From assembly GCA_910574455.1 (NCBI GenBank), contig CAJSYZ010000012.1, positions 427,317 through 491,316 of the forward strand: a stretch of DNA of 64,000 nt, in the 5' to 3' direction. Positions 5,885-30,150 of the stretch are shown here, one piece after another. How positions within the stretch are numbered: the first letter of the stretch is position 1; every line of letters starts with the position of its first letter. The notes beneath the pieces were generated by a model. The model ran no database searches. It was not told where the DNA came from and saw only the letters and a list, made by a program, of their open reading frames with translations. The translations under genes were made by a program, and so were the position numbers. This stretch comes from Trichaptum fuscoviolaceum. Taxonomy: Eukaryota > Basidiomycota > Agaricomycetes > Hymenochaetales > Trichaptaceae.

Positions 5885-6886
<1,002 letters not shown>

Positions 6887-7311: not shown

Positions 7312-7428
7312 TTGCGCTGAAGCTCCGGCGTTCTAAGAAATCGTGCAAAATAGCCGAGGCGCACAAAACTTGACGGCGTCACGTTACCACTGCCAGTGGC
7401 TTAGTAATACAACTTGAATTCAATTTAT

Positions 7429-7434
7429 CACGTG
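7429..7434. promoter_or_regulatory. CACGTG E-box in promoter of FunK1 A
   Basis: ATCACGTGAT at 7427-7436, about 125 bp before the ATG. CACGTG is also present at a similar distance upstream of A' (near 29265) and of the chimeric gene (43229-43234), so it has been kept among copies. It is a bHLH-type site by sequence; use is inferred. Confidence 0.4.
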
Positions 7435-7450
7435 ATGTGAATGTTTACCA

Positions 7451-7459
7451 GTTGTGGTT
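7451..7459 (+). promoter_or_regulatory. GTTGTGGTT motif upstream of FunK1 A
   Basis: The same 9-mer lies 80-110 bp upstream of the start codon in five FunK1 copies of the A and C families, some with two copies. Conservation may reflect common descent rather than selection. Confidence 0.4.
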
Positions 7460-7557
7460 CTGTGGTGGTCAATCAAGACGCGGGGACGCGACTTAAAGCT
7501 TCACTCCCCATTCTTTACTTCTCACCATCATACTCGCCTCCACAAAGAAAGCCCAAA

Positions 7558-10087
7558 ATGAGATCTCACTCCTCCCAATCCTCCGCCTCCGCTCACACTT
7601 GGGAACCCCGTAAGATATGGCGAATTGCGAGAGGTGTTAAAGATGCTAAGAGGGTTGACTTACCCTCTTTCCTGAACGCTCTCCTTGCGCAACAACTTCT
7701 ACACGCCGACAAGACAGTCTCCCAGAAGTCATCTTACCCGGAGAAGATCAGACAATCCAAGACCTTACTAGACACCATGCTACGCGAAGCTGAGGACTTT
7801 TGCGCAGATGAGAGTAATCAGAGGTCTATTAACATGAGAAGGCACATTCATGATTGGTGCGTATCCAGAACTGTCACGATTTCCCCCATATACCTCGGAG
7901 CTCACCCATGGTTATTTAGCCTTCGCCACGAGACAGATAAAGAAGAGAATCATCCTAGCTCTCTATCGATAGCTTTGAATATCATCCTCCTGGAGTTTCG
8001 AACTCGACAGTTCGGAGTCCTGCCGGTTCCCAGCGAGCGTTCTGACGGAGAAGAGCTCATATTCATCTCTAATCATCAATTGCTCCCAGAATCTGATCGC
8101 TTACGAAAGCATCTTTCCAAGTCAAAGAGAATCCCTGATATCGTTGCGACTTTCACATCTACGCTTCACGGCGTTTGTAGCAATAGTAAGGAATCGGGGT
8201 TCGACGATCTCATCGCCGGTCACGGATTCACCGGATCCTCGTTTGAGAAGTTGAAGTGGGTCGACACTCTTCAGACGTGGGAACTAGAAATGTCGACGAG
8301 GGATGTCTTAGGTGTTCCGTTCTCTGAAAGTCAGAATGTTGAGACACACTCAACAAAGAAATCCGTCGATTCTTCTGTTCCAAGGCGCAAAAATGGCCTA
8401 AAGCGAGCCTCTGACGAAGAGGAACACGCGCAACGCAAAAGAGCACGGGTGTGTAGTCAATCAGGGACGGAACGGCGACCGTTTCAAGTTGTTGATGACC
8501 AGGGTAATCTATTGCCTGAGCTTCGCGGTGCTTACTATGCAACGGAGCGACTCTCTGCGGGATGGTATATTTCCCATAGCACAGCAGTTCTACTTGAAGG
8601 TGTGCCGTCATAACTTTTCCTGCTAATGTTCGTAGTATTGACCGCTTGCCTTAAGACGCAAAGTTATCGCTTCGCTGGTATGATGCAGGAGGTTGCATCG
8701 AAAGCGAGAAGATTGACATCGTTGAAGAGATGCCTATGCTTGTACTATTGCTTATGGTCCTGCAACGATTCGATAAACGTATGTGGGGTCTGAGCTTGGA
8801 TACCCCGTTGAAGGTCAATGTCGGCAGTGAGTGCTACTCTCTCGAGCCAGAGATGGACTGCGTGTTTGAGTTCGCGGGACGACGAACATTCGGTGCTACT
8901 GCTGTTCCATTACCCCCGACGAACCAAGAGACCCAGCCCCAGGTCACTAGTCCTCCGCTCTTCCTCAAGTCAAGCTATGTGAAGTGTAGCGATCGCAAGG
9001 AACCTAACATCATCAATATCATACACGAACGAGCAAACACTCTCCTTCCAGAGAAGTACCGTAAGATGGTCACAGACCACGTCCCAAAAGTCATTGCTTC
9101 GAAGGAATGCGAGTCCGAGTCGACAGCTATAATTCGATTACTCATCAAGGCAGCAGGGGGGTTCGCGCAAGTCACAGAGGAAGACATGCTAAAGGAGTCT
9201 CGCGTTAGGGTGTGGATGGTAACCCGCAAACTACAAGTCCTGCAAAATTTGCCGCCTGCCTCGTTTTGGCGGATATTCTGGCAGCTGCTCCGATGTACGT
9301 CTCGTTATGCCATTATTATCTAATTTTACTAACTTGATGAAAATGAAGGCCATTATTTGCTTTGGCGCATTGGCATTGCGCATAACGATATCAGCCCCAA
9401 TAATCTCATGTACTTCGAAACCGACAGCGATATGATCGGCGTTCTCAATGACTACGATTTGGCATCGGTAATGGAACCTGGCGCTCGTTCCCCAGAGATG
9501 AATGGCTATGAGCGTGTAGGTACGAAGCCATTTATAGCTTTGGGTCTGCTTCATAACCAGGACGATCTGGTGAGACGGCGATATCATCATGACTTAGAGT
9601 CTTTCGCATGGAGATTCTTGTGGGAGATGCTGCAAGAGACACCGAGATGGGCGGCTGAAACCAGCGAGGTCGAATACGAAAGAAAAATGTCTTACGTCTC
9701 TCAGATTGGCAGTCAGATAGTTTATGTCAAGAAAGAGTGGCGTCCATATTTCAAGTTCATCTTCAAATGGTTTAGAAGCTGCCTGGAATTCGCCGACAAC
9801 ATAGTTTGTTGTATGGCAACGATCTACTTGGAGGGACCGGGTTTCAAGACCAAAGAAGAGAAGCTTGCGTGTCGCAGTAAGCTGGAGGAGGAAACCTCGG
9901 ACAAGGAGTACCTGCAGCAAGTGGTCGAGGCTGCAAGAACGGTAGTCTGTAATCCAGAACTCGAAGTAATACGAGACACCTCTTGGCTTGATGTTGAGCT
10001 ACTCCGTAAGTCGAGTGGCCCCTACCTTTCTTACATTGACTTATATCACGCTAAACTTTAGGTGCTCAATGCGAACAGCAATCATGA
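7558..10087 (+). CDS. FunK1-type fungal protein kinase, copy A
   Basis: A member of the fungal-specific FunK1 kinase family (Pkinase_fungal); substrates of this family are not established. Five exons (7558-7856, 7920-8599, 8656-9294, 9349-10005, 10062-10087) give 766 residues in frame. The N-terminal half carries HTWEPRKIWRIARGV and an LLEFRTRQFG region, then a basic RKRARVCS patch that could be nuclear targeting. The kinase domain begins near AKLSLRWYDAGG. It shows the FunK1 block TLLPEKYRKMVTDHVPKV, a catalytic loop IAHNDISPNNLMY (HND in place of HRD), DYDLASVMEPG at the metal-binding site, and SFAWRFLWEML. The catalytic Asp is kept. Intron 1 (7857-7919) is 63 nt and stop-free, so its retention would stay in frame. 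The short last exon matches the ending of FunK1 copy 7. Its mirror copy is A' at 26604-29139. Confidence 0.85.
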
Positions 10088-10866
10088 TATCGTCTTTCAA
10101 AGTTTTTCTTCATCATTATTCCTTATTGATCATCATGAATACCTGTATGGCATTTTACGGTGGTGCGGGGTTCGGTAGATGACTCGGGTGCATTAGAGAA
10201 CCACATACAGTAATGTTATCTATCCATAAGAATCAGATTTTTAAATATAATATTAAAGAGAAGTTGATGAATTTTGGCATGATGTCGCGTTCTCTTTCGT
10301 AGAATCAATACAATTTACATTACTTGTGTCTTTCTTGTGTGCCTAGGCATACAAATTGTATGGATGATGAAGGTCCGAATCGGGCCGGCACTGCCAGCGC
10401 TGAAGTACTACCGGGACGCGCGTTTCTGCTGCTGCTACTACATAGTACTTACATTTGTTCAGGCTCATCGGCTTTAACCAAGCGCGTTGTCAGCCCCGTC
10501 TGTTCACCACAGGCTTCTTTGTGGACATACTCTAGTCAAGAGTATGAGTGTCGTTTGCACTGCGTTAGATCAAGGATTGAGTGCTGGTCTCCTGGCTGGT
10601 AGTAATACCGAGGGCGCCCATGACTCGAGCTCACTAACATGGCCTTCATTCCACCAAGCTCGGTATGAAACCAAATCTGCATGTTGTAGGAACAATAAGG
10701 TCGCGCCTTAAACCACGAGAATTTGTGGTTCACCCCAACCACACCAACCACACCAACCACACCGACAAGATGTATAAAGAGAACCGTCAATTCCTGCATC
10801 TACACCAGTATTATTGAGACCTATTCTGCCCTTACCCACACCTTCTGTGAAACACGATTCCTTTCG
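10088..10866. other. Intergenic region between FunK1 A and B
   Basis: About 780 bp, repeated in inverted form between B' and A' (25825-26603). It contains a short CCAACCACA tandem run close to B. Open frames here are not supported as genes. Confidence 0.5.
10733..10766 (+). repeat. CCAACCACA microsatellite in the B promoter
   Basis: Three to four 9-bp units about 100 bp upstream of the B start codon. It is also found upstream of B' (25930-25965) with a similar copy number. The units resemble the AACCACAAC motif upstream of the A/C-type kinases. Confidence 0.6.
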
Positions 10867-13560
10867 ATGGATCCGTCCATCACCTCGACCCCTCAAGCCA
10901 AAGGGACAGCCCCGTACGCCGAGTTCAATATGGACCACCAGTCAGTATTCATTTTAGTATTTTTACCAATGATCTTCTTATTAAAGACTACTGTTATACG
11001 TTTTCCAGCGCAGGATCTCCGAGAAATATTCAGAGAGTCGAGACTGACCTCGAAAAGTCGACTCAATCTGTTCATATCCTTCCTTTGCTAAAAGCCTTTC
11101 TTGCCGAAGTCTTGCTAGAATGCAAGAACACGGATACAAAAGATGATCCAGAGTTTTTGAAAGGTGTTTTGAAGGAAAGCAATAAGCTTTTCAGTCAGAT
11201 GCTTCGTGACGCTATAGACTTTTGTAATGATCAGAAGAACAAAAACCGTGCCAAACTAATGAAGAATCTTGATGACTAGTATGTACCTCCTTGCTTTTAC
11301 CGGTGTGATGGCGACTCATAATCTTATAGTGCAAATCAGCCATACGAGAAGCAAAGATACCAACCTTTTGCGAGTGCTTTGAACACGATCCTTAGCGAGT
11401 TTCAAGACAAAACCTATGGGCCAATTCCCAAACCAAGTACACGGCCGAACAAAGAAAACTTGATATTCATGCCCAACGACCCGCACTCAATTGAGTCGAC
11501 GCATTTGCGGAACGACTGTCCACAATCTATACGAAAGCCCGATATAGTTGCTGTCCATACGTCCTATCTTTGCAAGGTCGACGATACACTCAAGAAAGAA
11601 ACCTTCAATAAGGTGGCAAAACTAATATCCGAGAATGCTATAACGGCGAACCCCGAAAATCCTCTCGAATGGACTAATGTACACCAGCCTTGGGAATTCA
11701 AAGTGAAGGACAGACACTTGGAAAAACCTCCCCGTATAAAGTGGGCTGTCAGGAAATTGCTTCGAGATCTGTACGAGAAAGATACAGAAGTTAGCCGCAA
11801 GCGTACTCGCGATGCAGATGCTAGCCAAGCAAACGAAAACCCAACCTCAAGGGCAAAGTCTTCTCGCAAATCCCTATACACCAGTGTCCATACCAGCATA
11901 CTTCCCGAAGAGTCATCAAATGTTCGCAAGCCACCAACGGGGGTGCCGACACTGCCGACTAGAACGCAATGCGCATATTATGGCATCGAGCGGAGCTCTT
12001 CTGTATGGCACGCCACCTATGGCTCAGTTGTCTTGGTCGAAGGTCATTACTTTCAATTTCTTCACTGACTGTCGTCAAAGCTGATATATTGTTGTTAGAT
12101 ACTAAGCTTTCAGTGCGCCGGTTTGATGCACAAAGTTGTATTGAAAGCGAGGACTTCGATATTTTTCAGTCCCTCCCTCTTTTCGTTGTAATGATTGCTA
12201 TTTTTCAACGCTTTAGCCTTCATACATGGGGACTGACTGAAAAGGACGCAATGAAAGTGAAGGTCGACAATAAGTCCTTTCGCCTCGCCCCCACAGAAAC
12301 GCCTTTTCAGCTCAATGGCCGGAGAACAACCGGGACTTCTGCAATTTACGACGACAATGCTCCAGATGACGATGTGAGCTCCTCCGAGTCAAGTACTAGT
12401 AGCCGTGGCAATGACGAACGTCATTCTACAACTGATGCACTTCGTGGAAATCCCGATGAATGGGAGAACGGCATGCCACTCTTCTTCAAATCGTATTGGG
12501 TCGAATGCGCCCGGAATCCAGAGCACCACTTCATCTTTGAAACACACAAACGAGCAAACACCATACTGCCTGAGAGATATCGAAGAATGGTCACTGATCA
12601 CATCCCGACAGTTATAGCAGCTCAAGTGTGCAAAAATGACACGACCGCGAGATTCCGTCTATTTCTCAGGTTTGCCGGCGCATTTCCGCATCTAAATGTT
12701 GAATATATACAGGCGCATGCACGGGTTCGGGTATGGATAGTTATGCCCCGACTTCGGGCAATCCATAAGCTCGAGCCCTCTCAGTTTATGAAAGTGCTTT
12801 GGGATAGTATTCGATGTGAGCAAGCCCATTCATTCCTAAACCGCTTGATATTATCATTGCCTAACATGTTCTCATTATAGGCCACTACCTAATGTGGAGA
12901 TCTGGTATTGCGCACGGCGATATTAGCCTCACAAACCTTATGTATCGTATAGTCGACTCTGAGTTGGTCGGTATGCTCAACGACTTCGACTTGGCTGCAA
13001 TAATGGAACCTGGTGCTCGCTCTCCTCCAAAAATAGGTTGGGAACGGACCGGAACTCTACCTTTTTTGGCTCTGGATTTGCTCCGGTATCATTCAGGGGA
13101 AATAGGCAGACGGTACCGACATGATCTTGAGTCATTCTCGTGGTGTCTACTATGGGAAATGCTCATCGAACCTAGCTCTACGTGGACGGAGGGGACTCTC
13201 AAGGAAGTCCTTGATTCTAGGCACTCTGTCATGAGTGCGATTGGTGAGCAGACTGTTTTCGTCAGACCTGCGTGGAGCCGTGACTTCAAAATCGTTGCAA
13301 ACTGGTTTCGGAGTTGGCATAACTACAACGCGGCAATAGATCTCGAGATATCGGACAAAGACTCGTCAATTGACAGTGTCATTACGATTCCAGAGGTGGT
13401 TGCAATACGCAACAAGAAGGATGATGATACAGACGACACCGTTCATATCAAAGCCGCCGTAGCGGCTGTAAAGAATGCCCGAGGCAGTAATATATTGGGA
13501 ATTCCCGCTCTGGTCGATACGACGTGGATTGATGTAGTATTAGAGCCAACAGCGTCCTAG
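10867..13560 (+). CDS. FunK1-type fungal protein kinase, copy B
   Basis: Five exons (10867-10940, 11009-11278, 11330-12042, 12099-12815, 12881-13560) sum to 817 residues with consistent phases. The start is MDPSITSTPQAKGTAPYAEF. The N-terminal half contains LLKAFLAEVLLECKN, ALNTILSEFQDKTYG and a Ser/Lys/Arg-rich linker (SRKRTRDADAS). The kinase part has TILPERYRRMVTDHIPTV, the catalytic loop IAHGDISLTNLMY (HGD) and NDFDLAAIMEPG, then ERTGTLPFLALDLL and SFSWCLLWEML. The Asp residues for catalysis and metal binding are present, so it could be active. It belongs to a subfamily distinct from A and C (acidic SSSESST insert before the kinase core). Introns fall at the same places as in A. Its mirror copy is B' at 23146-25824. 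Confidence 0.85.
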
Positions 13561-14073
13561 GTCTCTTGACTTCTTATAAATTATATCATAACTCTTCCAT
13601 TATGATTATTCAAGTGTAGAATTGAAGATAATGCAGACTCTGAAAGTGAAAAACAAGTATGATCCGCCAGAAGGTAATAAAATCTGAAAACGTCAGTGAG
13701 ACGCTGCAGACGTATCCTCTCTTACACAATCACCTTCACTACTTCCCCGACAACACACATTAGCTACAGTGTCTCTGATCTCTCTAAAACTCATCAAATA
13801 CTATCATATATCTCTCATTACTACACTAAAAGATCCTCCAGTTACATAGTGCTATGTGAGTGTGTCAGACTTGAAATGGTTTTGTATGCCATTGCTAGTA
13901 AGATGATAATATTGTTGCATCGATATATGGCAATTGTCCACAACATCTTTTGTACATTAGTATCATATTGTGTATTTGAAAGATGTACTACACATGTACT
14001 ACCTAAAAGGCGTCTTACATTCGTCCTATACATACAAATAAATATATGTTATCTATGTATGAAAAATCCCAAA
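13561..14073. other. Intergenic region between B and C
   Basis: AT-rich, convergent 3' flanks of B and C. It matches 21254-21762 plus 23062-23145 in the right arm, where a transposon has split it. The uninterrupted target site of that transposon (complement of CTTGTTTTT) is at about 13650-13658. Confidence 0.55.
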
Positions 14074-16327
14074 TCACGATAATAGTGTCTGTTTTATATG
14101 GCAAATATAATCAAGGTTAAGCCTGAAAGTAAGTATCTCAAAAGCACGCATGAACCACATGAATATGAGCTTGAAGTACGGGTACCACTCTCGTTTGACG
14201 TGTACGACCTTGCTTCCGATACGAGCCACGTAGGCAGTCTTACAATCATGCTCTTCCACGATTGTTTTCGCTGTCCAATTCGGATCTTCTTTCAGCATCT
14301 CCCACAAGAATCGCCACGCGAAAGACTCTAGATCGTGTCGATATCGCCGCCAGAATGGTTCGTCTTGATCTTGAAGAAGATCTAACGCCATGAAAGGTCT
14401 CGTGCCTGCACGTTCGTACCCGTCAATCACCGGGGTACGATCACCGGGCTCCATGACTGACGCCAAGTCAAAGTCGTTGAGAACACCAACTAGATCTCCA
14501 TCGGAATCGAAGTACATTAGGTTGTTAGAGCTGATATCTCTGTGTGCAATTCCAATTTGCCAGAGAAGATAGTGACCTGAACGTCTATAAGTAAGCGACA
14601 TAAAAGTGTTACAATACGAGATCACTTACATCGAAGAAGTTCCCAGAATATCCGCCAAAACGTTACAGGCGGCAGATTTTGCAGAACTTGGAGTTTACGG
14701 GTCACCATACACACTCTAACGCGAGACTCCTTTAGAATATCATCCTCGGTTAGTTGCGTAAACCCGCCTGCGGCCTTGATGAGTAGTCGAATAATAGCTG
14801 TCGACTCGGACTTGCATTCTTCCGAAGCAACGACTTTCGGAACGTGATCTGTAACCATCTTCCGGTACTTCTTGGGAAGGAGAGAGTTTGCGCGCTCGTG
14901 TATGACACCAATGATGTCTGGCTCCTTGCGATCGCTGCACTTCACGTAGCTTGATTTGAGGAAGAGCGGGGGGCTGTTGTTCAGGGGCTGCGTCTCTATG
15001 CTCGTTGAGAAGGGCACAGCGGTAGCCCCGAACGTCCGCCGTCCAGCAAACTCGAACGCGCAGTCCATCTCCGAGTCTAGGAAGAAGAATTCGTTGCCAA
15101 CCTTGACCTTCGCTGGGTTGTCTATGCTCAGACCCCACATACGTTTATCAAACCGTTGTAGGACCAAAAGCAATAGTACGAGAATGGGCGTTTGTTCCAC
15201 GATATCGATATTCTCGCTCTCGATGCAACCTCCTACATCATACCAGCGAAGCGATAACTTGGTATATAAGGAAAGCTGTCAAAACGAAAACATCAGGGAG
15301 AAAAGTTATGATGGCTCACCTTCGAGCTGGACTGTCATGCTGTGTGAGATATACCATCCCGCAGAAAGTCGCTCCGTTGCATAATAGGCACAACGAATCT
15401 CCGGCAGAAGGCTACCCCGCCCATCAGTTATCTGAGACGGTCGCCGTTCCGTCTCTGATTGACTACACATCCGTGCTCTTTTGCGCTGCCCTTGTTCTTC
15501 TTCGTCTGAGGGGCGTTTAAGACCATTCTGAATGCGTGAAAGACAAGGTTCGGACGGTTTATCTGGCGAGAGTATCGAAGCACTACACAACGAAAGATTC
15601 AAATCGCAGGTCAGAAGGACGTCAGCCCATTGTAGCCCGGGAGACGCAAGTTCTGATATGCCGTGCTCAGCATTGAGGGCCACCCCGTCCTCAAATCGCA
15701 TGTCCTTGCGATCTTTGAAAGCGCGGTGCAAAGTAGACGTGAAAGCGGTTACGATGTCAGGCGTTCGTTTGGACTTGGACATGTGCTCTCGGATGTGCTT
15801 GGATTCCAAAGACAGCTGATCGTTGGAGATGAAAATGAGTTCATCTCCACCGGTCTGTTCGCTTGGAACAGAAAGGTCTCCAAACTGACGGGACCGAAAC
15901 TCGAGAAGAATGGTGTTCAAAGCTGTTGATAGAGGGTTTAATTGATTCTTCTCTCCCCCTTTCAAAATGCTGAGGAACAATAGATGAGTGCTGATAGAAT
16001 CATGCCAGTCTGGAGTACGTACCATTCACGAATGTGTCGTCTCATGTCCAAAGATGTCTGATTACTGTCATCGGAACAGAAGTCCGTGGCTTCGCGTAGC
16101 ATAAGATCTAGTAGCCCCTTGAACTAGCTAATCTTCTCTGGATAAGCTGACTTGCATGTATCTTCAATCGTATTGCATAAAAGTTGCCGTGCGAGAAGAG
16201 CGTTGAGAAAAGTTGTAAAGTCGACCTTCTTAGCCTTCCTAACGCCTCGGGCAATGCTCCGTATTTTGCGAGGTTGCCATGTGTGAGAAGAATCTGAGGA
16301 TCGGGAGTAATGCCAGTGATTGCTCAT
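14074..16327 (-). pseudogene. FunK1-type kinase, copy C, broken by a stop codon and a 3' deletion
   Basis: Same exon layout as C', starting MSNHWHYSRSSDSSHTW. In exon 1 a CAG codon of C' is TAG here (16126-16124), stopping the protein after SAYPEKIS, about 68 residues in. Downstream the frame is otherwise readable: RRPSQITDGRGSLLPEI, LPKKYRKMVTDHVPKV, IAHRDISSNNLMYF and NDFDLASVMEPGDR. After KREWYPYFKLIFMWF the sequence jumps to what is 3' flank in C', a deletion of about 300 bp with its joint near 14152. This replaces the conserved C-terminal region with an unrelated tail ending HIKQTLLS. Starting translation after the stop seems unlikely. Best read as a pseudogene. Confidence 0.85.
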
Positions 16328-16449: not shown

Positions 16450-16633
16450 ATTTTACACGCCTCTGATTAATAAAATCACCTGAGGTGATCATTTTTTGTC
16501 AGTGGTGAAGTTTCTGTGCGCGGTAGCTCCAGCCTCCAATTGCAGAGATATCTCAGAGTAGAACAAGTGCCCCATGAGTCAACGTGATAGACGGTGAGTA
16601 AACACAATTCGGGCCCGGAAGAGACAAAAGAAA

Positions 16634-16704
16634 AGTTGAACTTGAAGTTCAAGTTCCCACGTGAGTCACCTTTTCAACTTCAAGTTCAAGTTGAAGTTCA
16701 GTGG
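16634..16704. repeat. AAGTTC/GAACTT inverted-repeat cluster around a CACGTG box
   Basis: Two blocks of AACTTGAA/TTCAAGTT-type repeats (16637-16655 and 16675-16699) flank CACGTG at 16658-16663. The cluster is 110-180 bp upstream of the SRA gene start, so it is a candidate promoter element. Mobile-element debris is the other option. Confidence 0.45.
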
Positions 16705-16817: not shown

Positions 16818-17835
16818 ATGAAAACTCGTGCTGAAGTTGATCTCATTCATCTTCGTATGGCCCGGCATCGTGCTACCTCTAGCCCCGTCTCTGACAGCGC
16901 AAGCATCAGCTCGGAGCCAGAGGCTGTGGTCGTACAGCAGAAGAAAAGAGTGACCAAAAAGCGGTGAGGTTGTTGTGCTTCTCAGCACAGCTTGGTATTG
17001 ACTTTGATGACTTGATGCTGAAGGGTGATTCAGTACGGGAACATCGAGGGGGTGCGGGTGGGGGCGACGTTTTCGTTCAGGCAAGTCTTCTGGGTTTGCC
17101 AAATGCAAGGCAATGCTAATGACAGCACGCTCTCGCAGGAAGGACGTCAGTCAGGCGGGCATCCATACGTAAGTGAGCATTGCAGCACTTTGTTCTTGTT
17201 CTGATCCGTTTGTCTAGTCCAATTAGAGCTGGGATTTGCGGAGGGCCAGATGGGGCGCTCTCGGTAGTGTTGTCCGGCGGTTACAGGGACGATATGGATA
17301 ACGGGGACACATTGTGCGTCTGTTGTCTCTTTCTACATTCATAGATGCTAACAAACGCATGCAGCATCTACACTGGCGCGGGCGGGCGCGATGCAACCAC
17401 GGAGGTATGTACCCAGCTGTGGCGACATTCAGATTTTACTGACAATACAACGCAGCGTATCGTGAAGGACCAGAACCTCGACGAGAGGTATAACAGGTCG
17501 TTGGTTCTCTCGCACAAGACCGGAAATCCCGTACGCGTCGTTCGCGGGGCAGGCCTCAACTCGCAGTTCGCGCCATGGCATGGGTACGTTCCCTGCAACA
17601 CGCATTCCAAATGTACTGATCTTTACTGACCTTGTCACTTCGTTAGATACCGCTTTGATGGCTTGTACAGGGTTGTGGGCGTGAAAAAGACGACGGGGAA
17701 GGATGGGCATGTCGTCTGCTCGTTTGAGTTCCAGGTGAGTACACCATCAGCCATTGCATCGTAACTCAACTTAACCTCTCGGTCCCGCAGCGTCTGCCCA
17801 ACCAGCCTGGCATTCCAAGGCGAACGTCCGTGTGA
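16818..17835 (+). CDS. Stand-alone SRA (YDG) domain protein, putative methylated-DNA reader
   Basis: Eight exons (16818-16963, 17024-17080, 17139-17168, 17218-17313, 17365-17404, 17456-17583, 17647-17734, 17791-17835) add up to 209 residues in a closed frame. A basic Ser-rich N-terminus (about 50 residues) precedes a full SRA domain: VIQYGNIEGVRVGATFSFR, DVSQAGIHTPIRAGICGGPD, VVLSGGYRDDMDNGD, FIYTGAGGRD, the thumb-like RIVKDQNLDERYNRSLVLS, KTGNPVRVVRGAG, then YRFDGLYRVVGV, the place of the YDG signature. SRA domains of the UHRF1/SUVH class flip out 5-methylcytosine or hydroxymethylcytosine; that role is inferred here from family. There is no RING, PHD or SET domain. Intron 2 uses a GC-AG donor (GCAAGT at 17081). 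The gene occupies most of the unique spacer of the palindrome. Confidence 0.88.
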
Positions 17836-18719
17836 AGCCAATGAGGCTGCAATCTTAGGTCTAGCCAGAGCCGGTATTTATTATTCGATCTCCGGGACTT
17901 TCTATGCGAGCACAAACATGCTTTCCGACCATTGCTTTCCATCAAGTTTGGTCACACGGGACGACAGACATGACGACGAAGGGTTCTCTGCCTGTGCAGC
18001 TAGCTCAGCGTCACCGCAACACGGAGGGAGACGGTGGTTCCATTGATACGTAGCTCCTATCGTCGAGAGGTTATCAAGACCTATGTGTCGCCCTCTACTA
18101 TCCTCCTCATGTTTACTCATCTATCCTCTACTCTTGATTGTCTTGCTATTGCCCTTCCTATCACCCTATATCCATATGCTTCCTATCTTCTGACCCCGTA
18201 CCCAACTGTTGACCACTGATGAATGTAATCAATAGAAAGGATATGTAAAACAAAACACAATGCAATATGTAGCCCATTATTGTCTATGTTAAATTTCTGT
18301 CGCAGCGCATGATGGGTCCCTTCTGTCTCTAATTAATTGGAGAGACAGTGCTTTCTACGCTGAACTGGCAGAACTCAAGGGGTACCCGGTAACCATTGTC
18401 GGAGTGTAAAGTCACTGACTCTGTCGCACGCACTTCAAGTTACTCACAGCGCCTAGAGCCTTTTCCATCTTGAACCCTCTTTGCTCCTCTCCTCTGGACT
18501 CTTGGACACACTTCTGAACACTGAGGAGGCTGGGGCTGCGACGTGTTAACAAATGTTCAGAATCCTGGTTTTTTGTCCAGGCAAAATTCGTCGAAAGCGC
18601 TACATCAATCACTCAACAAGATAACACAAGAGTTTTCGAAGTCTCGAGAGAACGTGGCGGAGAGAGGTGTCAGAAAGGGCCGAGGCGGACTGATGCCTGC
18701 CGCTAGCTCACCACAGTCA
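17836..18719. other. Intergenic spacer between SRA gene and right palindrome arm
   Basis: SRA 3' flank and pyrimidine-rich DNA near 18080-18200. No supported gene. Sequence from about 18550 resembles the DNA upstream of FunK1 copy 7 (31000-31240), so it belongs to the C-family promoter unit. Confidence 0.45.
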
Positions 18720-18727
18720 ACCAGGCG

Positions 18728-18748
18728 GTTGTGGTTCTAGTTGTGGTT
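18728..18748 (+). promoter_or_regulatory. Two GTTGTGGTT motifs upstream of FunK1 C'
   Basis: Copies at 18728-18736 and 18740-18748, about 100 bp before the start codon, matching the pair upstream of FunK1 copy 7. Confidence 0.4.
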
Positions 18749-18836
18749 TGTGTTTATAGGATCATGTCTTTTTGGGCATTCAACGCGAAACGCTCTGACA
18801 CCTTCCCCATTCCACTTCCGTGTTCACTCTGGCGGA

Positions 18837-21253
18837 ATGTGTGCTCAATCCTCGGCATCTGATAACACATGGAAACCCCACATAATATGGCGGATTGCTC
18901 GATGCGTCAAAACGGCTAGGAAGGTTGACTTCACAACCATGCTCAACGCTCTCCTTGCGCGGCAACTCTTATGGAGTACGAGTGAAGATTCGTGCAAGTC
19001 AGCTTATCCAGAGAAGATTAGCCAGTCCAAAGGGCTACTAGATCTTATGCTACGCGAAGCCACGGACTTCTGTTCCGATGACAGTAACCAGACATCTTTG
19101 GACATGAGACGACACATTCGTGAATGGTACGTACTCAAAGCTGGCATGATTTTTTCAGCACTCATCGATTGTTCTTCAGCTTTCTCCAAGAGGAAGAAAG
19201 TGATCAGTTAGACCTTCTATCAACAGCCTTGAACATAGTCCTTCTCGAGTTTCGGTCTCGTCAGTTTGGAGACCTTCCTATTCCCAGCGAACAAACCGAC
19301 GGAGATGATTTAATCTTCATCTCCAACGATCAGCTGTCTTTGGAATCCAAGCACATCCGAGATCACATGTCCAATTCTAAGCGAACGCCTGACATCGTTG
19401 CCACATATGCGTCTACTCTGCGCCGGGCTTTCAAAGATCGCAAGGACCTGCGGTTTGAGGATTGGGTGGCGGTCAATGCTGAGGGCGACATATCAAAGGC
19501 TTCCTCTCCCGGGCTAAAATGGACTGATGTTCATCTGACCCGGGATCTGAATCTGTCTGGTGCATCAGTGCTCTCGCCAGAGAAACCATCCGAACCTAGA
19601 CTTTCACGCCTTCAGACTGGTCTCAAACGTGCACCGGACGAAGAAGAACATGAGCCTCGCAAAAGAGCACGGGTGTGTAGTGAATCAGAGGCGGAACGGC
19701 GACCGACTCAGATAACTGATGGTTGGGGTAGCCTGTTGCCGGCGATTCGATGCGCATACTATGCAGCGGAGCGACTTTCCGCAGGATGGTATATCTCTCA
19801 CAGCATGGCAGTCCTGCTCGAAGGTGAGCCGTCATTACTTTCATTGCTGATGTCTCAATATTAACAGTTCTCTTTAAGATACCAAGTTATCGCTTCGCTG
19901 GTATGACGCAGGAGGTTGCATCGAGAGCGAGAAGATCGATATCGTGGAGCAGACGCCCATGCTCGTGCTATTGCTTTTGGTCCTGCAACGATTCGATAGA
20001 CGTATGTGGGGTCTGAGCATGGACAACCCAGCGAAGATCAAGGTTGGCAACGAATTCTTCTCCCTCGACTCGGAGATGGACTGCGCGTTTGAGTTTGCTG
20101 GACGGCGGACGTTTGGTGCTACCGCTGTGCCCTTCTCAACGAGCATAGAGACGCAGCCCCTGGACAACAGCCCTCCGCTCTTCCTCAAATCAAGTTACGT
20201 GAAGTGCAACGATCGCAAGGAGCCCGATATCATCGGTGTCACACACGAGCGCGCAAACACTCTCCTTCCAGAGAAGTACCGGAAGATGGTTACAGATCAC
20301 GTCTTGAAAGTCGTTGCTTCGGAAGAATGCAAGTCCGAGTCGACAGCTATAATTCGACTACTCATCAAGGCAGCAGGCGGGTTTACGCAACTAACCGAGG
20401 ATGATATTCTAAAGGAGTCTCGCGTTAGAGTGTGTATGGTGACCCGTAAACTCCAAGTTCTGCAGAATCTGCCGCCTGCAACGTTTTGGCGGATATTCTG
20501 GGAACTTCTTCGATGTAAGTGATCTCGTATTGTAACACTTTTATGTCGCTTACTCATAGATGTTCAGGTCACTATCTTCTGTGGCAAATTGGCATTGCAC
20601 ACAGAGACATCAGCTCTAATAACCTAATGTACTACGATTCTGATGGTGATCTGGTTGGTGTTCTGAACGACTTCGACTTGGCGTCAGTCATGGAGCCCGG
20701 TGATCGTACCCCAGTTATTGACGGGTACGAACGTGCAGGCACGAGACCTTTCATGGCATTAGATCTTCTTCAAGATCAAGACGAACCATTCTGGCGGCGA
20801 TATCGACACGATCTGGAGTCTTTTGCATGGCGATTCTTGTGGGAGATGCTAAAAGACGATCCACAATGGACAACATCGAAAAGCGCGGAAGAGTATCAAA
20901 GGAAGCTGGCCTACGTGTCTTCAATCGGAAGCCAGGTCGTACACGTCAAACGAGAGTGGTACCCGTACTTCAAGTTCATATTCATGTGGTTTACGGCGTG
21001 CGTGGGCTTCATGAATGGCGTAGCTTGTCGCGTGACGACAGTGCATATAGATGGCCCGGGTTTCAAATCGAAGGACGAGGAGCTAGAGTTTTGCAACATG
21101 TTGGAAGAGGAGATTCTGGACAGAGCACATCTGCAGCCAGTGATTGAAGCGGCAAGAATGGTAGTGTGTGATGTAGACGTCGAGGCCATACGAGACAGCT
21201 CTTGGCTTGATGTTAAGCTGCTCTATGAGTCGGACTCACACAACTTTCTTTAA
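18837..21253 (+). CDS. FunK1-type fungal protein kinase, copy C' (intact)
   Basis: Four exons (18837-19126, 19180-19823, 19879-20514, 20568-21253) give 751 residues in frame. It starts MCAQSSASDNTWKPHIIW. Features in order: LLDLMLREATDFCSDDSN, STALNIVLLEFRSRQFGD, basic PRKRARVCS, LSLRWYDAGG, RRTFGATAVPF, TLLPEKYRKMVTDHV, the canonical catalytic loop IAHRDISSNNLMY (HRD), NDFDLASVMEPGDR, RPFMALDLL and SFAWRFLWEML. The C-terminal region AARMVVCDVDVEAIRDSSWL is intact, unlike in C. The donor for the short last exon used by A and copy 7 is missing (CTATGAGTCGG), so translation reads into a slightly different tail ending SHNFL. This is the best candidate for an active A/C-type kinase in the window. 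Confidence 0.87.
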
Positions 21254-21762
21254 TTGCTAGCCCCCCTTTAGTTTCTCAAGATAAAGAACGCTGATTTCGT
21301 CATGCGTGCTTTTGAGGTACTTACTTTCAGGCTAATTGATTATATTTGCCATATAAAACAGTCATTATTATCGTGATTTGGGATTTATCATACATAGTCA
21401 ACATATACTCATGTGTATGTATAGGACGAACGTCATCTTTCAAATACACAATATGATACTAATGTACAAAAGATGTTGGGGACAAATTGCCATATATCGA
21501 TGCAACAATATTCTCATCTTACTAGCAATGGCATATAAAACCATTTCAAGTCTGGCACACTCACGTAGCACAATGTAACGGTAGGATCTTCTATTGTGGT
21601 CATGGTAGTTGTATGATGGTGTTTGGAGGGTTTTGGATAGATCAGAGACACTGTAGCCAATGTGTGTTGTTGGGGAAGTAGTGATGGTGGTTGTGTAAGA
21701 GAGGACACATCTGCAGCGACTCACTGAAGTTTCCAGATTTTATTACCTTCCGGCGGATCATA
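21254..21762. other. 3' flank of FunK1 C'
   Basis: AT-rich DNA matching 13690-14150 in inverted orientation. No gene seen. Confidence 0.5.
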
Positions 21763-21771
21763 CTTGTTTTT

Positions 21772-23052
21772 GGGCAACTAGATTTTAACTTACAGATTAC
21801 CGTGCTACCGCGCAGTACCGCGCAGTACCGCGGGAAATTACCGTGCAGTTCCGCGCGGTTCCGTCGATTTTACCGCCCACTTCAGCGCCATTACCGTCGA
21901 TATTACCGCGCAGTACCTTCCACTTTACCGCGCAGCTAATTTAGACAGCTCCTTGTAAGTAGAGCAGAAATTAGAGAAATAAAACTTCATTTTCTTCAGG
22001 TTTGTGGACTCCTGTATAAGTCCGGGAAACATAGCTCGAATGCCAGCTTGGACTACTGTGGATACGTCAATCAGGTTTTCCAACGAACAGAATTTAGGGA
22101 GCAACATCGAAGTTTATCTTACATTCAAAACACGAGATGCAAAGGAGTTCACATGCTGGGTGTTACTTCAGAACATAATGCACTTTCTCCCTAAGACGGT
22201 CGACAATGCTCTTGTTGTTAGCGGTCCTGATATTGGGAGAATTCTTCCCGTTGAGAGAACGGAAAAAGGTAGAAAAGGTAGGGATCCATGTATTCTTCTG
22301 CGAGAATCAGGTAGCGGACGAAACAAAAAACTTGTGAAATATGGGTTGTCGGAAGTCACTAAAGTACAGAGACTATAACCTAAGTGTGTCAATATTGTGT
22401 GAGTGGCTATTCTCCTCATCGCTTTCATATGTATTCTGAATTTCTCTTGACTTAAATCTACTGCACGGAACTTTCGAACATTACCGCGCATCTACCGCAA
22501 ATTCTCAGGCACAATTCAGGGTCGTGCAAGATTAACATGCAGTTCCGCGCCATTACCGTCGACTTTACCGCCCACTTCCGCGCCATTACCGTGCATTACC
22601 GTTGATTTTACCATGCTACCGTTGGTTTTACCATGCCTACCGTTGATTTCACCATGCCTACCGTTGATTTTACCATGACTTCCGCGCTATTTCACGAACT
22701 TTACCGCTCTTCCATTCAACTACCGCGGACATTTACCGCGCCTACCATACAGATTACCGCCCTTCTTGTTTCTAACTGTATGCCTCTTTGACATGTTTTA
22801 TTCCAGTAAATTCGGAATAATACTGAAAAAAATATATCTTGTATCATACACCCATGGAATTGTGTACGTATTTTTTTTTGTATTTTTAAAAGTTACAATA
22901 ACCCGTAGAACCCTCACCGAAGATGAGAGGGAGACGTGAGAAAGTGGAAGGAACTGCGCGGAAGTACTCGCGGTAATGCTCACTATGGGCGGTAAATCGA
23001 TCGATTTACCATTTACCGCGCGCGGAACCTGCATGTTAAAATCTGTAGGCCG
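21772..23052. mobile_element. 1.28-kb non-autonomous DNA transposon with a 9-bp target duplication, MULE-like
   Basis: CTTGTTTTT occurs directly before (21763-21771) and after (23053-23061) the element and only once in the left arm, which therefore shows the empty site. The ends are imperfect inverted repeats (18 bp, about 13 matching) sharing AGATTTTAAC. Both subterminal regions (21800-21935 and 22485-23030) are packed with TTACCGCGCAGTACC-like repeats, as seen in elements whose transposase binds subterminal arrays. A 9-bp duplication suggests Mutator-like mobilisation, but no transposase is present. It inserted after, or was lost from one side since, the palindrome formed. Confidence 0.8.
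22004..22378 (+). other. Possible captured coding fragment inside the 1.28-kb element
   Basis: A 124-codon open frame after an acceptor-like TTTTCTTCAG. It includes PGNIARMPAWTTVDTSIRFS, EVYLTFKTRDAKEFTCWVLL and ALVVSGPDIGRILPVERTE. The region is less repetitive than the rest of the element and reads like protein, so it may be a host gene piece carried by the transposon. The family is not recognised, and there is no ATG at the start of the frame. Confidence 0.35.
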
Positions 23053-23145
23053 CTTGTTTTTCACTTTCAGAGTCTGCATTATCTTCAATTCTACACTTGG
23101 ATAATCATAATAGAAGAGTTATGGTACAATAAGAGGTCAAGAGAC

Positions 23146-25824
23146 CTACGACTCTGTTGGCTCTAATACTACATCAATCCACATCGTATCGGTCAAAGCG
23201 GGAATACCCGAAATACTGGCAACCTTCATGGCCGCTACGGCCGCTTTGATATGAACGGTGTCGTCTGTTTCATCATCCTTTTTGTTGTATATTGCAGTCA
23301 CCTCTGGAGTCGTAAGGACACGGTCACTTGACGAGTTCTTCTTCGATATCTCGAGATCTATTGTCGCGTTGTAGTTGGTCCAACTTCGAAACCAGTTTGC
23401 AACGATTTTGAAGTTACGGTTCCACGCAGGTTTGACGAAAACCGACTGCCCACCAATCGCACTCATAACAGAGTGCCTAGAATCAAGGACTTCCTCAAGA
23501 GTCCCCTCCGTCCATTTGGAGCTAGGTTTGATGAGCATTTCCCATAGTAGACACCACGAGAATGACTCAAGATCATGTCGGTACCGTCTGCCTATTTCCC
23601 CTGAATGATACCGGAGCAAATCCAGAGCCAAAAAAGGTAGAGTTCCGGTCCGTTCCCAACCTATTTTTGGAGGAGAGCGATCACCAGGCTCCATTATTGC
23701 AGCCAAGTCGAAGTCGTTAAGCATACCGACCAACTCAGAGTCGACTATTCGATACATAAGGTTTGTGAGGCTAATATCGCCGTGGGCAATACCAGATCTC
23801 CACATTAGGTAGTGACCTATAATGAGAAACATGTTAGGCAATGATAATACCAAGCGGTTTAGGAATGAATGTCTTGCTCACGTCGTATACTATCCCAAAG
23901 CACTGTCATAAACTGAGAGGGCTCGAGTTTATGGATTGCCCGAAGTCGGGGCATAACTATCCATACCCGAACCCGTGCATGCGCCTGTATATATTCAACA
24001 TTTAGATGCGGAAATGCGCCGGCAAACCTGAGAAATAGACGGAATCTCGCGGTCGTATCATTTTTGCACACTTGAGCTGCTATAACTGTCGGGATGTGAT
24101 CAGTGACCATTCTTCGATATCTCTCAGGCAGTATGGTGTTTGCTCGTTTGTGTGTTTCAGAGATGAAGTGGTGCTCTGGATTCCGGGCGCATTCGACCCA
24201 GTACGATTTGAAGAAGAGTGGCATGCCGTTCTCCCATTCATCGGGATTTCCACGAAAGGCGTCAGTTGTAGAGTGACGTTCGTCATTGCCACGGCTACTT
24301 GACTCGGAGGAGCTCACATCCTCATCTGGATCGTCGTCGTCGTAAATTGCAGAAGTTCCGGTTGTTCTCCGGCCATTGAGCTGAAATGGCGTTTCTGTAG
24401 GGGCGAGGCGAAAGGACTTATTGTCAACCTTCACTTTCATTGCGTCCTTTTCAGTCAGTCCCCATGTATGAAGGCTAAAGCGTTGAAATATAGCAATCAT
24501 TACAACGAAAAGAGGGAGGGACTGAAAAATATCGAAGTCCTCGCTTTCAATACAACTTTGTGCATCAAACCGGCGCACTGAAAGCTTAGTATCTAACAAC
24601 AATATATCAGCTTTGACGACAGTCGGTGAAGAAATTGAAAGTAATGACCTTCGACCAGGACAACCGAGCCATATGTGGCGTGCCATACAGAAGAGCTCCG
24701 CTCGATGCCATAATATGCGCATTGCGTTCTAGTCGGCAGTGTCGGCACCCCCGTTGGTGGCTTGCGAGCATTTGATGACTCTTCGGGAAGTATGCTGGTA
24801 TGGACGCTGGTGTATAGGGATTTGCGAGAAGACTTTGCCCTTGAGGTTGGGTTTTCGTTTGCTTGGCTAGTATCCGCATCGCGAGTACGCTTGCGGCTGA
24901 CTCCTGTATCTTTCTTGTATAGATCCCGAAGTAATTTCCTGACAGCCCACTTAATACGGGGAGGTTTTTCCAAGTGTCTGTCCTTCATTTTGAGTTCCCA
25001 AGGCTGGTGTACATTAGTCCATTCGAGAGGGTTTTCGGGGTTCGCCGTTATAGCATTCTCGGATATTAGTTTTGCCACCTTTTTGAAGGTTTCTTTCTTG
25101 AGTGTATCGTCGACCTTGCAAAGATAGGACGTATGGACAGCAACTATATCGGGCTTTCGTATAGATTGTGGACAGTCGTTCCGCAAATGCGTCGACTCAA
25201 TTGAGTGCGGGTCGTTGGGCATGAATATCAAGTTTTCTTTGTTCGGCCGTGTACTCGGTTTGGGAATTGGCCCATAGGTTTTGTCTTGAAACTCGCTAAG
25301 GATCGTGTTCAAAGCACTCGCAAAAGGTTGGTATCTTTTCTTCTCGTATGACTGATTTGCACTATAAGATTATGAGTCGCCATCACACCGGTAAAGGCAA
25401 GGAGGAACATACTAGTCATCAAGATTCTTCATGAGTTTGGCACGGTTTTTGTTTTTCTGATCATTACAAAAGTCTATAGCGTCTCGAAGCATCTGACTGA
25501 AAAGCTTATTGCTTTCCTTCAAAACACCTTTCAGAAACTCTGGATCATCTTTTGTCTCCGTGTTCTTGCATTCTAGCAAGACTTCGGCAAGAAAGGCTTT
25601 TAGCAAAGGAAGGATATGAACAGATTGAGTCGACTTTTCGAGGTCAGTCTCGACTCTCTGAATATTTCTCGGAGATCCTGCGCTGAGACACGTATAACAG
25701 TAGTCTTTAATAAGAAGATCATTGGTAAAAATACTAAATTGAATACTGACTGGTGGTCCATATTGAACTCGGCGTAAGGGGCTGTCCCTTTGGCTTGAGG
25801 GGTCGAGGTGATGGACGGATCCAT
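23146..25824 (-). CDS. FunK1-type fungal protein kinase, copy B'
   Basis: Mirror copy of B with the same five-exon structure: ATG at 25824-25822 (MDPSITSTPQAKGT) and TAG at 23148-23146. All kinase motifs of B are present: TILPERYRRMVTDHIPTV, IAHGDISLTNLMY, NDFDLAAIMEPGDR, ERTGTLPFLALDLL and SFSWCLLWEML. Differences from B are scattered substitutions, more of them in the C-terminal quarter (for example RNFKIVANWFRSWTNYNAT against RDFKIVANWFRSWHNYNAA), and a shorter acidic Ser run. No stop or frameshift was seen, so it should encode a full protein of about 810 residues. Confidence 0.83.
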
Positions 25825-26603
25825 CGAAAGGAATCGTGTTTCACAGAAGGTGTGAATAAGGGCGGAATAGGTGTCAATAATGCTGGTGTAGATACAGGAA
25901 TTGACGGTTCTCTTTATACATCTTGTCGGTGTGGTTGGTGTGGTTGGTGTGGCTGGTGTGAACCACAAATTCTCGTGGTTTAAGGCGCGACCTTATTGTT
26001 CCTACAACACGCAGATGTGGTTTCATAAAGAGCTTGGTGGAATGAAGGCCATGTTAGTGAGCTCGAGTCATGGGCGCCCTCAGCGGTATTACTACCAGCC
26101 AGGAGACCAGCACTCAATCCTTGCCCTAACGCAGCGCCAACGACAATCATACTCTTGACTAGAGTATGTCCACAAAGAAACCCGTGGTGAACCGACGGGG
26201 CTGACAACGTTCTTGGTTAAAGCCGATGAGCCTGAACAAATGTAAGTACTAGTAGCAGCAGAAACGCGCGTCCCGGTAGTAGATACTTCAGCGCTTGCAG
26301 TGCCGGCCCGATTCGGACCTTCATCATCCGTATAATTTATATGCCGAGGCATACAAGAAAGACACAAGTAATGTAAATTGTATCGATTCTACGAGAGAGA
26401 ACGCGACATCATGCCAAGGTTCATCAATTTCTCTGCTATATTATAATAAACATCTGATTTTTAAGGATAGCAAACATTACTGTATATGGTTCTCTAATTC
26501 ATCCGAGTCATCTACCGAACCCCGCACCACCGTAAAATTGTCATAGACGTATTTATGATGATCAATAAGGATTAATGATGAAGAAAAACTTTGGAAGACG
26601 ATA
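25825..26603. other. Intergenic region between B' and A'
   Basis: Inverted copy of 10088-10866, including the CCAACCACA microsatellite near B' (25930-25965). No gene. Confidence 0.5.
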
Positions 26604-29139
26604 TCATGATTGCTGTTCGCTTTGAGCACCTAAAATTTAGCGAGATATAAGTCAATGTAAGAAAGGTAGGGGCCACTCGACTTACGGAGTAGCTCAACAT
26701 CAAGCCAAGAGTTGTCTCGTATTACTTCGAGCTCTGGATTACAGACTACCGTTCTTGCGGCCTCGACCACTTGCTGCAGGTACTCCTTGTCCGAGGTCTC
26801 TTCTTCCAGCTTACTGCGACACGCAAGCTTCTCTTCTTTTGTCTTGAAACCCGGTCCCTCCAAGTGGATCGTCGCCATACAACAAAGTATATTGTCGGCA
26901 AATTCCAGGCAGCTTCTAAACCATTTGAAGATGAACGTGAAGTATGGACGCCACTCATTCTTGACATGAACTACCTGACTGCCGATCTGTGAGACGTAAG
27001 ACATTTTTCTTTCGTATTCGACCTCGCTGGTTTCAGCCGCCCATCTCGGTGTCTCTTGCAGCATCTCCCACAAGAATCTCCATGCGAAAGACTCTAAGTC
27101 ATGATGATATCGCCGTCTCACCAGATCGTCCTGATTATGAAGCAGATCCAAAGCTATAAATGGCTTCGTGCCTACACGCTCATAGCCATTCATCTCTGGA
27201 GTGCGAGCGCCAGGTTCCATTACCGATGCCAGATCGTAGTCATTGAGAACGCCGATCATATCGCTTTCGGTTTCGAAGTACATGAGATTATTAGGGCTGA
27301 TATCGTTATGCGCAATGCCAATGCGCCAAAGCAAATAATGGCCTTCATTTTCATCAAGTTAGTAAAAATAGATAACAATGGCATAACGAGACGTACATCG
27401 GAGCAACTGCCAGAATATCCGCCAAAACGAGGCAGGCGGCAAATTTTGCAGGACTTGTAGTTTGCGGGTTACCATCCAAACCCTAACGCGAGACTCCTTT
27501 AGCATGTCTTCCTCTGTGACTTGCGCGAAGCCCCCTGCTGCCTTGATGAGTAGTCGAATTATAGCTGTCGACTCGGACTCGCATTCCTTCGAAGCAATGA
27601 CTTTTGGGACGTGGTCTGTGACCATCTTACGGTACTTCTCTGGAAGGAGAGTGTTTGCTCGTTCGTGTATGATATTGATGATGTTAGGTTCCTTGCGATC
27701 GCTACACTTCACATAGCTTGATTTGAGGAAGAGCGGAGGGCTGTTGTCCAGGGGCTGCGTCTCTATGCTCGTTGAGAAGGGCACAGCGGTAGCACCAAAC
27801 GTCCGCCGTCCAGCAAACTCAAACGCGCAGTCCATCTCCGAGTCGAGGGAGAAGAATTCGTTGCCAACCTTGATCTTCGCTGGGTTGTCCATGCTCAGAC
27901 CCCACATACGTCTATCGAATCGTTGCAGGACCAAAAGCAATAGCACGAGCATGGGCGTCTGCTCCACGATATCGATCTTCTCGCTTTCGATGCAACCTCC
28001 TGCATCATACCAGCGAAGCGATAGCTTTCCGTCTTAAGGCAAGCTGTCAATACTACAAACATTTACAGGAAAAGTTATGACGGCACACCTTCAAGTAGAA
28101 CTGCCGTGCTATGGGAAATATACCAGCCCGCAGCGAGTCGCTCCGTCGCATAGTAAGCACCGCGAAGCTCTGGCAATAGATTACCCTGGTCATCAACAAC
28201 TTGAAACGGTCGGCGTTCCGTCCCTGATTGACTATACACCCGTGCTCTTTTGCGTTGCGCGTGTTCTTCTTCGTCAGAGGCTCGCTTGAGACCATTTTTG
28301 CGCCTTGGAACAGAAGAATCGACGGATTTCTTTGTTGAGTGTGTCTCGACATTCCGACTTTCAGAGGACGGAACACCTAAGACGTCCTTCGTCGACAAAT
28401 CTAGTTCCCAAGTCTGAAGAGTGTCGACCCACTTCAACTTCTCAATCGAAGATCCGGTGAATCCGTGACCGGCGATGAGATGCACCAATTCGTCGATCCC
28501 CGATTCCTTACTATTGCTACAAACGCCGTGTAGCGTAGATGTGAAAGTCGCAACGATATCAGGGATTCTCTTTGACTTGGAAAGATGCTTTCGTAAGCGA
28601 TCAGATTCTGGGAGAAATTGGTGATTAGAGATGAATATGAGCTCTTCTCCGTCAGCACGTTCACTGGGGACTGGCAGGACTCCGAACTGTCGAGTTCGAA
28701 ACTCCAGGAGGATGATATTCAATGCTATCGATAGAGAGCTAGGATGATTCTCTTCTTTATCCGTCTCGCGGCGAAGGCTAAATAACCATGAGTGAGCTCC
28801 GAGGCATATGGGGGAAATCGTGACAGTTCTGGATACGCACCAATCATGAATGTGCCTTCTCATGTTAATAGACCTCTGATTACTCTCATCTGCGCAAAAG
28901 TCTTTAGCTTCTCGTAGCATGACGTCTAGTAAGGTCTTGGATTGTCTGATCTTCTCCGGGTAAGATGATTTCTGGGAGACTGTCTTGTCGGCGTGTAGAA
29001 GTTGTTGCGCAAGGAGAGCGTTCAGGAAAGAGGGTAAGTCAACCCTCTTAGCATCTTTGACACCTCTCGCAATTCGCCATATTTTACGGGGTTCCCAAGT
29101 GTGAGCGGAGGCGGAGGATTGGGAGGAGTGAGATCTCAT
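26604..29139 (-). CDS. FunK1-type fungal protein kinase, copy A' (mosaic)
   Basis: Mirror copy of A with the same exon plan; ATG at 29139 (MRSHSSQSSASAHTWEPRK), short last exon ending at TGA 26606-26604. Motifs include TLLPEKYRKMVTDHVPKV, IAHNDISPNNLMY (HND), NDYDLASVMEPGAR and SFAWRFLWEML. Most of the protein is nearly identical to A. From about 27724 to 27977, however, it matches C' base for base (VEQTPMLVLLLLVLQRFDRR through ETQPLDNSPP) where A differs. This marks a conversion tract in the kinase N-lobe. Compared with A it has three extra residues near ESGIDELVHLIAGHG. Intron 1 is again stop-free and a multiple of three. Confidence 0.85.
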
Positions 29140-29233
29140 TTTGAGCTTTCTTTGTGGAGGCGACTATGATGGTGAGAAGTAAAGGAGTGAAGCTTTAAGT
29201 CGCGTCCCCGCGTCTTGAATGACCACCACACAG

Positions 29234-29242
29234 AACCACAAC
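29234..29242 (-). promoter_or_regulatory. AACCACAAC motif upstream of FunK1 A'
   Basis: Complement of GTTGTGGTT, about 100 bp before the A' start codon; counterpart of 7451-7459. Confidence 0.4.
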
Positions 29243-30150
29243 TTCTTGAAATGGTAACATTCACATCACGTGCTAAACTGAATTGTATTTCTAGTAAGCA
29301 GTGGTAACGTGACACCGGCAACTTGAATTCGAGCCTACTAAGGGTTCTTAGAACGCCGGAAAACAGGCTTCAGCGTACGTCAACTTCAACATCACGAAAA
29401 TCTCTAATTTCAGATAAGGCCCTTGTATGTACATTGTAGAGCCATAATGCATGGTAATGAGAAACCTTAATATGTACACATATATAAGACGTAGGTGGTA
29501 CTTTATCCCGGTATTGTAGTGACCATAATGGGTGGTAATGGACCGCCATATTGCAAGCCCTTGCAATGTGCCGCAATATTGACAGGCCCTTGCAATGTAC
29601 CACCATATTGCTATAACAGGTAATAACATGATAAGGGCTCTGACATGTTCCTATTGCGGTACAACAATCTATCCATATTAGGGTCACTAGTAATCATAGC
29701 ACACTTGGTTCATTATTAAATATATATATTATTAAAACGTAAATACATATGCAGATATATCTACTACATACAAAGAAGGGAACTTACAAACCATATGTGC
29801 GAAAGCTAGGTTCACCATGCAAAGACCAGACTTAGCACACAAGGAAAATGGCAAGAGCATTAGGCACAGCTCAAGGAAGCAACTCAGGTTAGCACTCTAG
29901 ATGGCGGCAGTTTGTCTTGATAAGTCCAAGCTGTGATGGCATGCAAAAGAGAAACCAGATATTCAGACAGCCAAGTTGTAAAAGCATAGACTACGAGCTC
30001 AAAGAATCCAGAAAGCAGACACCTCAGCGAGAGCAAGAGAGTATTAGCCATATAGCCTTCAGACCTAGTGTTCATTGTCTCATCAAGTAACGGTCGTCGT
30101 TTGCCCTCTGAACATGCGCGCGGGGCGGCGAACTGAAGACGGCGACGCTT

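Follow-up and report, generated by a model that had tools for sequence, protein, structure and literature searches.

Inverted FunK1 kinase genes around an SRA gene in Trichaptum fuscoviolaceum: a probable case of a genome-wide orientation pattern

How did six FunK1 kinase genes come to lie in mirror order around a gene for an SRA domain, and does the SRA gene at the axis matter to them? The question arises from a 64,000-nucleotide stretch of the basidiomycete Trichaptum fuscoviolaceum (hereafter the window; C12:427317-491316), for which a preliminary description had claimed a 22-kb imperfect palindrome. The assembly searched comprises 59.09 Mb in 12 contigs, designated here C1 to C12. Self-BLAST of the window confirmed the inverted arms, and the gene models bore out the proposed mirror order A+ B+ C- / SRA / C'+ B'- A'-. 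The features of the palindrome, and the two FunK1 copies beyond it, are as follows.

7312..16312, + strand: left arm, inverted match to the right arm; probably the derived copy
7558..10061, + strand: FunK1 gene A, reading frame intact, with an optional 63-bp in-frame candidate intron at 7857-7919
11199..13560, + strand: FunK1 gene B, intact frame, 5' end uncertain
14074..16327, - strand: C, a FunK1 pseudogene with a stop codon in exon 1 and a truncated 3' end
16818..17835, + strand: gene for a stand-alone SRA protein of 209 aa, with 8 exons and a single GC-AG intron
18837..29378, - strand: right arm, inverted match to the left arm
18837..21253, + strand: FunK1 gene C', intact, 4 exons, 751 aa
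21772..23052, no strand given: inserted repeat, right arm only, with a 9-bp duplication at 21763-21771 and 23053-23061
23146..25492, - strand: FunK1 gene B', intact frame, 5' end uncertain
26630..29139, - strand: FunK1 gene A', intact frame
31261..34389, + strand: D, a FunK1 copy beyond the palindrome, split by an element at 32933-33625
40071..43084, - strand: E, a FunK1 copy beyond the palindrome, A/C-type and B-type parts in one model

In self-BLAST, the arms aligned in minus orientation as an outer block (7367-13657 against 23053-29324; 93.8% identity over 6,320 columns) and an inner block (14144-16301 against 18848-21001; 88.0% over 2,160 columns), with a match of 84.4% between these blocks (13649-14153 against 21300-21771). 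Weak homology was traced in the junction text roughly as far as the proposed outer limits at 7312 and 29378. Intergenic DNA was also found to match, as both the A-B and the B-C spacers align between the arms, differing at 55 of 931 sites (5.9%) and 45 of 478 sites (9.4%), respectively (Fisher p 0.021). Identity of the outer arms ranged from 84.5% to 99.5% across 200-column windows with a dispersion index of 2.45, and divergence between the arms amounted to 3-25% in patches. Both differences confined to one arm were verified, namely the right arm's transposon and the left arm's deletion. The former, at 21772-23052, is a repeat of 1,281 bp with 67 matches in the genome; its target word CTTGTTTTT occurs twice around it and once in the left arm, where the empty site persists at 13649-13657. 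The latter removed the end of gene C, at 14152/14153.

The arms were compared with the family-wide background of identity. The outer pair lies far above it, with 94% between A and A' compared to 73-76% for A against C, C', or E, but the coding length of the inner pair does not, as C and C' share 88.0% while D (30977-34358) matches C' at 86.2% and C at 86.8%. C and C' were assigned to the palindrome because of a 3' flank that is common to those two and absent at D. Upstream DNA, on the other hand, is common to D (30977-31281) and C' (18548-18848) and absent at C. This sharing of flanks suggests that it is the right arm that retained the older context, with the left arm probably a copy that was cut at the start of C. 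The dS values were 0.111 for A/A' outside the conversion tract described below, 0.107 for B/B', and 0.309 for C/C', with dN/dS of 0.18 (again outside the tract), 0.28, and 0.34, which is low for the A and B pairs; the C models entered these calculations without exon 1. Since the inner arms diverged more than the outer ones, a single event requires later conversion or further duplication. Both one inverted duplication followed by conversion and two rounds of duplication would fit.

A, B, C, and their copies are predicted from sequence to be kinases of the FunK1 family. Their matches to PF17667 (Pkinase_fungal), which span just the C-lobe part of the profile, scored 59.4 bits for A, 58.9 for B, and 66.7 for C with a Pfam cut-off of 24.1, and matches above the cut-off were found at B', A', C', D, and E too. 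All three types carry serine in place of lysine at active-site position 8, as HNDIS (A, A'), HGDIS (B, B'), and HRDIS (C, C'). Lineage-specific expansions and a serine at this position have been described for FunK1 (PMC3203195), and the family at this locus resembles that account in lineage-specific duplication and in the serine; the excerpts available from it are silent on orientation and palindromes. C and D are broken FunK1 copies, the element in D being 693 bp long and flanked by an 8-bp duplication, TTCTGGGA. Two catalytic motifs of FunK1, HRDIS and HGDIS, stand in the single model of E, which looks like a fusion of an A/C-type gene with a B-type one. A search of a protein collection with FunK1 A returned a single match among 8000 candidates scored, a metagenome protein.

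The preliminary description noted that the arms of such palindromes are kept alike by conversion. Ectopic conversion was indeed observed, but its clearest tract makes A and A' less alike. The tract was recognized from the comparison of A' with C':

19909..20206, + strand: conversion tract, C' side
27705..28002, - strand: conversion tract, A' side

The tract of about 300 bp includes 101 polymorphic sites and has a z of 43, with none of 1000 column shuffles scoring as high. In one 120-column window, A' and C' are 100% identical, while A and A' share just 75.8%. The tract represents ectopic gene conversion, from C' into A' or the reverse. Further tracts passed the same test for C/C' (z 15.7), C/D (z 14.9), A'/C (z 22.6), and D/E (z 17.6), and A/A' reached p 0.031 at best, in a test whose column shuffling leaves uneven constraint along the gene in place. 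Only the A'/C' tract was counted as proven, because the identity of the partner arm falls at the same place. The C/C' tract and the patchy divergence of the outer arms hint at arm-to-arm conversion, but the C tract is also common to D, and the patchiness is compatible with such conversion without being proof of it. Additionally, a restriction of conversion to inverted pairs was considered and rejected: in the C3, C6, and C12 sets, mosaics with z>8 were found in 22 of 44 opposite-strand and 20 of 36 same-strand pairs, a comparison that left out C8, seven divergent C6/C12 genes, and one group of three C6 genes.

Similar features are known from other systems. Gene-bearing palindromes of sex chromosomes show arm-to-arm conversion according to the excerpts available (PMC8981503, PMC7023750), and they resemble the C12 locus in their large inverted arms with signs of gene conversion. 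They differ in that the mammalian arms described in those excerpts are >99% identical, compared to 93.8% and 88.0% at C12, and in that the clearest conversion at C12 is between paralogues of one arm. In Aspergillus, recursive ectopic gene conversion has been reported (PMC12844118), which is similar in involving conversion among nearby fungal paralogues together with gene loss, although it concerns a different fungus and different genes, and a palindrome is not named in the part of the report available.

The preliminary description regarded large gene-bearing palindromes as rare, which did not hold within this genome, as C3, C4, C6, C7, C8, C9, C10, and C12 all bear inverted FunK1 pairs. A genome search with PF17667 gave at least 117 matches, with exons counted singly, and 74 loci of about 1.1 to 2.3 kb each were compared; two of the C7 loci are overlapping fragments, and one locus each on C1, C2:3.72, C3:1.38, and C11 was excluded. 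Of the 71 loci with a partner, 70 had their best one on their own contig, and each FunK1 subfamily is restricted to one chromosome. At a coverage above 0.6, 122 pairs were within contigs and none between.

Among 24 reciprocal-best pairs, 18 were on opposite strands (plain count, p 0.042). When the pairs were ranked by identity, the top 16 (98.8 to 86.4%), drawn from C7, C12, C4, C10, C9, C6, C3, and C8, were all on opposite strands, compared to two of the remaining eight. Against a null of strand shuffles within clusters, identity rank predicted orientation with an AUC of 0.944 (p 0.0002; top run, p 0.0002), and collapsing nested blocks to 20 pairs gave an AUC of 0.964 (p 0.00015; run, p 0.0007). 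The 86% identity cut was chosen post hoc, and the rank test alone is independent of it. At or above this cut, 20 of all 25 pairs were on opposite strands and five on the same strand (the best at 90.3%); at 92%, all seven were opposite. The most similar pairs are inverted copies spaced 6-190 kb apart, and mirror-nested pairs occurred on C12, C6, C3, C8, and C7, while C6 also includes a direct chain of equal length and lower identity. For C7, the first four clusters had led to the prediction that X+ and X- would pair, and likewise Y+ and Y-, leaning on the exon patterns of the profile matches, and the prediction held (2632+/2727- at 98.8%, 2641+/2686- at 91.4%); all five reciprocal pairs on this contig were opposite. 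C10 included one opposite pair at 92.8% and two same-strand pairs at 85.6% and 80.2%.

In Caenorhabditis elegans, the youngest gene duplicates on the same chromosome are mostly inverted and older ones less so, and human duplicates showed no significant bias (66 direct and 77 inverse of 143), as given in the excerpts available (PMC4546093, PMC2728529). The link between youth and inversion in C. elegans parallels the identity ranking in FunK1; those excerpts deal with adjacent loci genome-wide, unlike the single family with spaced copies analyzed here. In the largely open-access literature searched, no description of FunK1 palindromes was found, and the one paper in which FunK1 appears along with tandem and inverted names FunK1 just once.

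Taken together, these findings make it probable that the locus is an inverted C-B-A duplication around an SRA bystander, later altered, and one case of a genome-wide FunK1 pattern. A block of the C, B, and A kinases would have been duplicated in inverted orientation around the single-copy SRA gene, and deletion, transposon insertions, and ectopic conversion among kinase copies would have followed; we infer a single event rather than several. The likely origin would be replication-based inverted duplication, through template switching or break-induced replication between copies. In addition or instead, near-identical direct copies may have been lost, since crossing-over between direct copies deletes the intervening DNA, while between inverted copies it just flips it. 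In the best reading, inverted copies that lie at a distance and exchange tracts are the form in which the chromosome-confined FunK1 subfamilies expand or persist, and the inverted excess may reflect either a bias at birth or a bias in survival.

The opposite-facing arrangement of the closest FunK1 copies bears on how gene families grow. Should other strains and species show the same orientation ranking, FunK1, a large kinase family of fungi, would provide a natural test of the birth and persistence of inverted duplicates, separating a replication-based birth bias from a survival bias through the loss of direct copies. It also carries a warning that paralogue trees of FunK1-like clusters blend conversion with descent.

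A stronger version, in which FunK1 expands almost solely by spaced within-chromosome inverted duplication and inverted orientation is the safe mode by which a fast-changing kinase family can persist among essential genes, is tentative and rather doubtful. It builds on the consideration that recent inverted copies can convert or flip without deleting the genes between them. For the genome-wide FunK1 pattern, a P450 control, which compares the strands of neighbours rather than identity, gave a mixed outcome (Fisher p 0.037, 0.15, 0.043, and 0.11 at 10, 15, 30, and 60 kb). Two P450 exons with equal scores lie 12 kb apart on the same strand (C4:946002 and 958141), so other families may include direct pairs of recent origin.

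It is unlikely that the layout arose by chance, with tandem copies reshuffled by small inversions and orientation unbiased. Several plain orientation counts near or inside the shuffled range agree with such a history (14 of 20 collapsed pairs, p 0.15; 15 of 21 without C12, p 0.11; and, for the first four clusters, a non-significant 10 of 14, p 0.17), as does the non-significant per-gene test (p 0.056, 0.0995). However, it explains neither the mirror-ordered sharing of intergenic DNA at C12 nor the identity ranking.

A functional cassette, in which the SRA protein reads methylated DNA of the arms and regulates silencing or recombination in the kinase array so that its axis position matters, has a very low probability. 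The SRA gene does sit at the axis, in a spacer that is unique as proposed, with no second copy of the spacer found in the genome. The predicted protein contains a complete SRA domain (PF02182, 153.2 bits, profile positions 2-148 of 148, cut-off 30.7) with the UHRF1-like GGYxDDxDxG..YTG. Its nearest solved structures are TagI and UHRF1, and its stretch GGYRDDMDNGDTFIYTG, which we take to be the base-flipping pocket as in UHRF1, aligns with the UHRF1 chain 3dwh. DNA methylase matches on C1, C2, and C4 indicate that a methylation system is possible. Against this, the gene is by its sequence of an ordinary agaricomycete type, with the best match in Cylindrobasidium torrendii (50% over 73%). SRA matches were found in at least two places of the genome, C12 and C2:2.70 Mb. 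The latter is a probable second SRA gene, as frames were read there although its match of 28 bits is below the cut-off, and it lies away from the C2 FunK1 matches at 0.83 and 3.72 Mb among the matches listed. No SRA match was found near any FunK1 locus other than that on C12, again among the matches listed. The arms showed no sign of methylation-driven decay, with CpG observed/expected ratios of 1.01-1.12 for the genes they contain and of 0.85 for the spacer, and no excess of CpG transitions between the arms (49/616, compared to 144/2127 for other C/G transitions; odds ratio 1.17, p 0.37). On C6, the inverted FunK1 pairs 2445.7+/2477.3- (90.8%) and 2455.5+/2484.4- (84.5%) enclose CDC20-like, thymidylate synthase, and C13 peptidase genes. 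An SRA gene as part of a recurring cassette was rejected on these genome positions and on the C6 case, and the claim that the kinase genes form a cassette around an epigenetic reader was not supported. Because housekeeping genes occupy a like position on C6, the SRA gene looks like a bystander of the kinase array, probably with no role in it.

Least credible is an assembly artefact, a fold-back or a head-to-head join of two haplotypes, for although an arm divergence of 6% is within a possible allelic range, the patchy 3-25% divergence with blocks from 88% to 94%, the clean insertion with its surviving empty site, the A'/C' tract, the absence of N characters from the window, and the similar inverted pairs at other loci all argue against it, as the preliminary description had also held, and a fold-back is unlikely as judged from the assembled sequence.

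Several minor observations concern the surroundings of these loci. A short near-perfect inverted repeat of the GAACTTGAAGTTCAAGTT type was noted by eye upstream of the SRA gene, at window positions 16630-16700. Within the interval of the C6 FunK1 pairs lies a second family with inverted copies, C6:2458176-2460291 and 2468161-2470263 (89%), whose 533-codon frames gave DUF matches below the cut-off only. The TPI gene at window positions 5885-6886 has, after one match of 95%, its best matches to named species in basidiomycetes at about 75%, with Phanerochaete carnosa at 75%, and a Pfam search with ten ORFs from the window flanks gave no match. Just left of the window, C12:420638-421217 and 426382-426961 form a 100% identical direct repeat of 580 bp, which is probably a further recent LTR element. 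An LTR retrotransposon with a higher GC of about 0.55 occupies window positions 48527-55237; its frames presumably resemble gag/pol with a chromodomain-like end, and its LTRs are 99.5% identical, which indicates a recent insertion.
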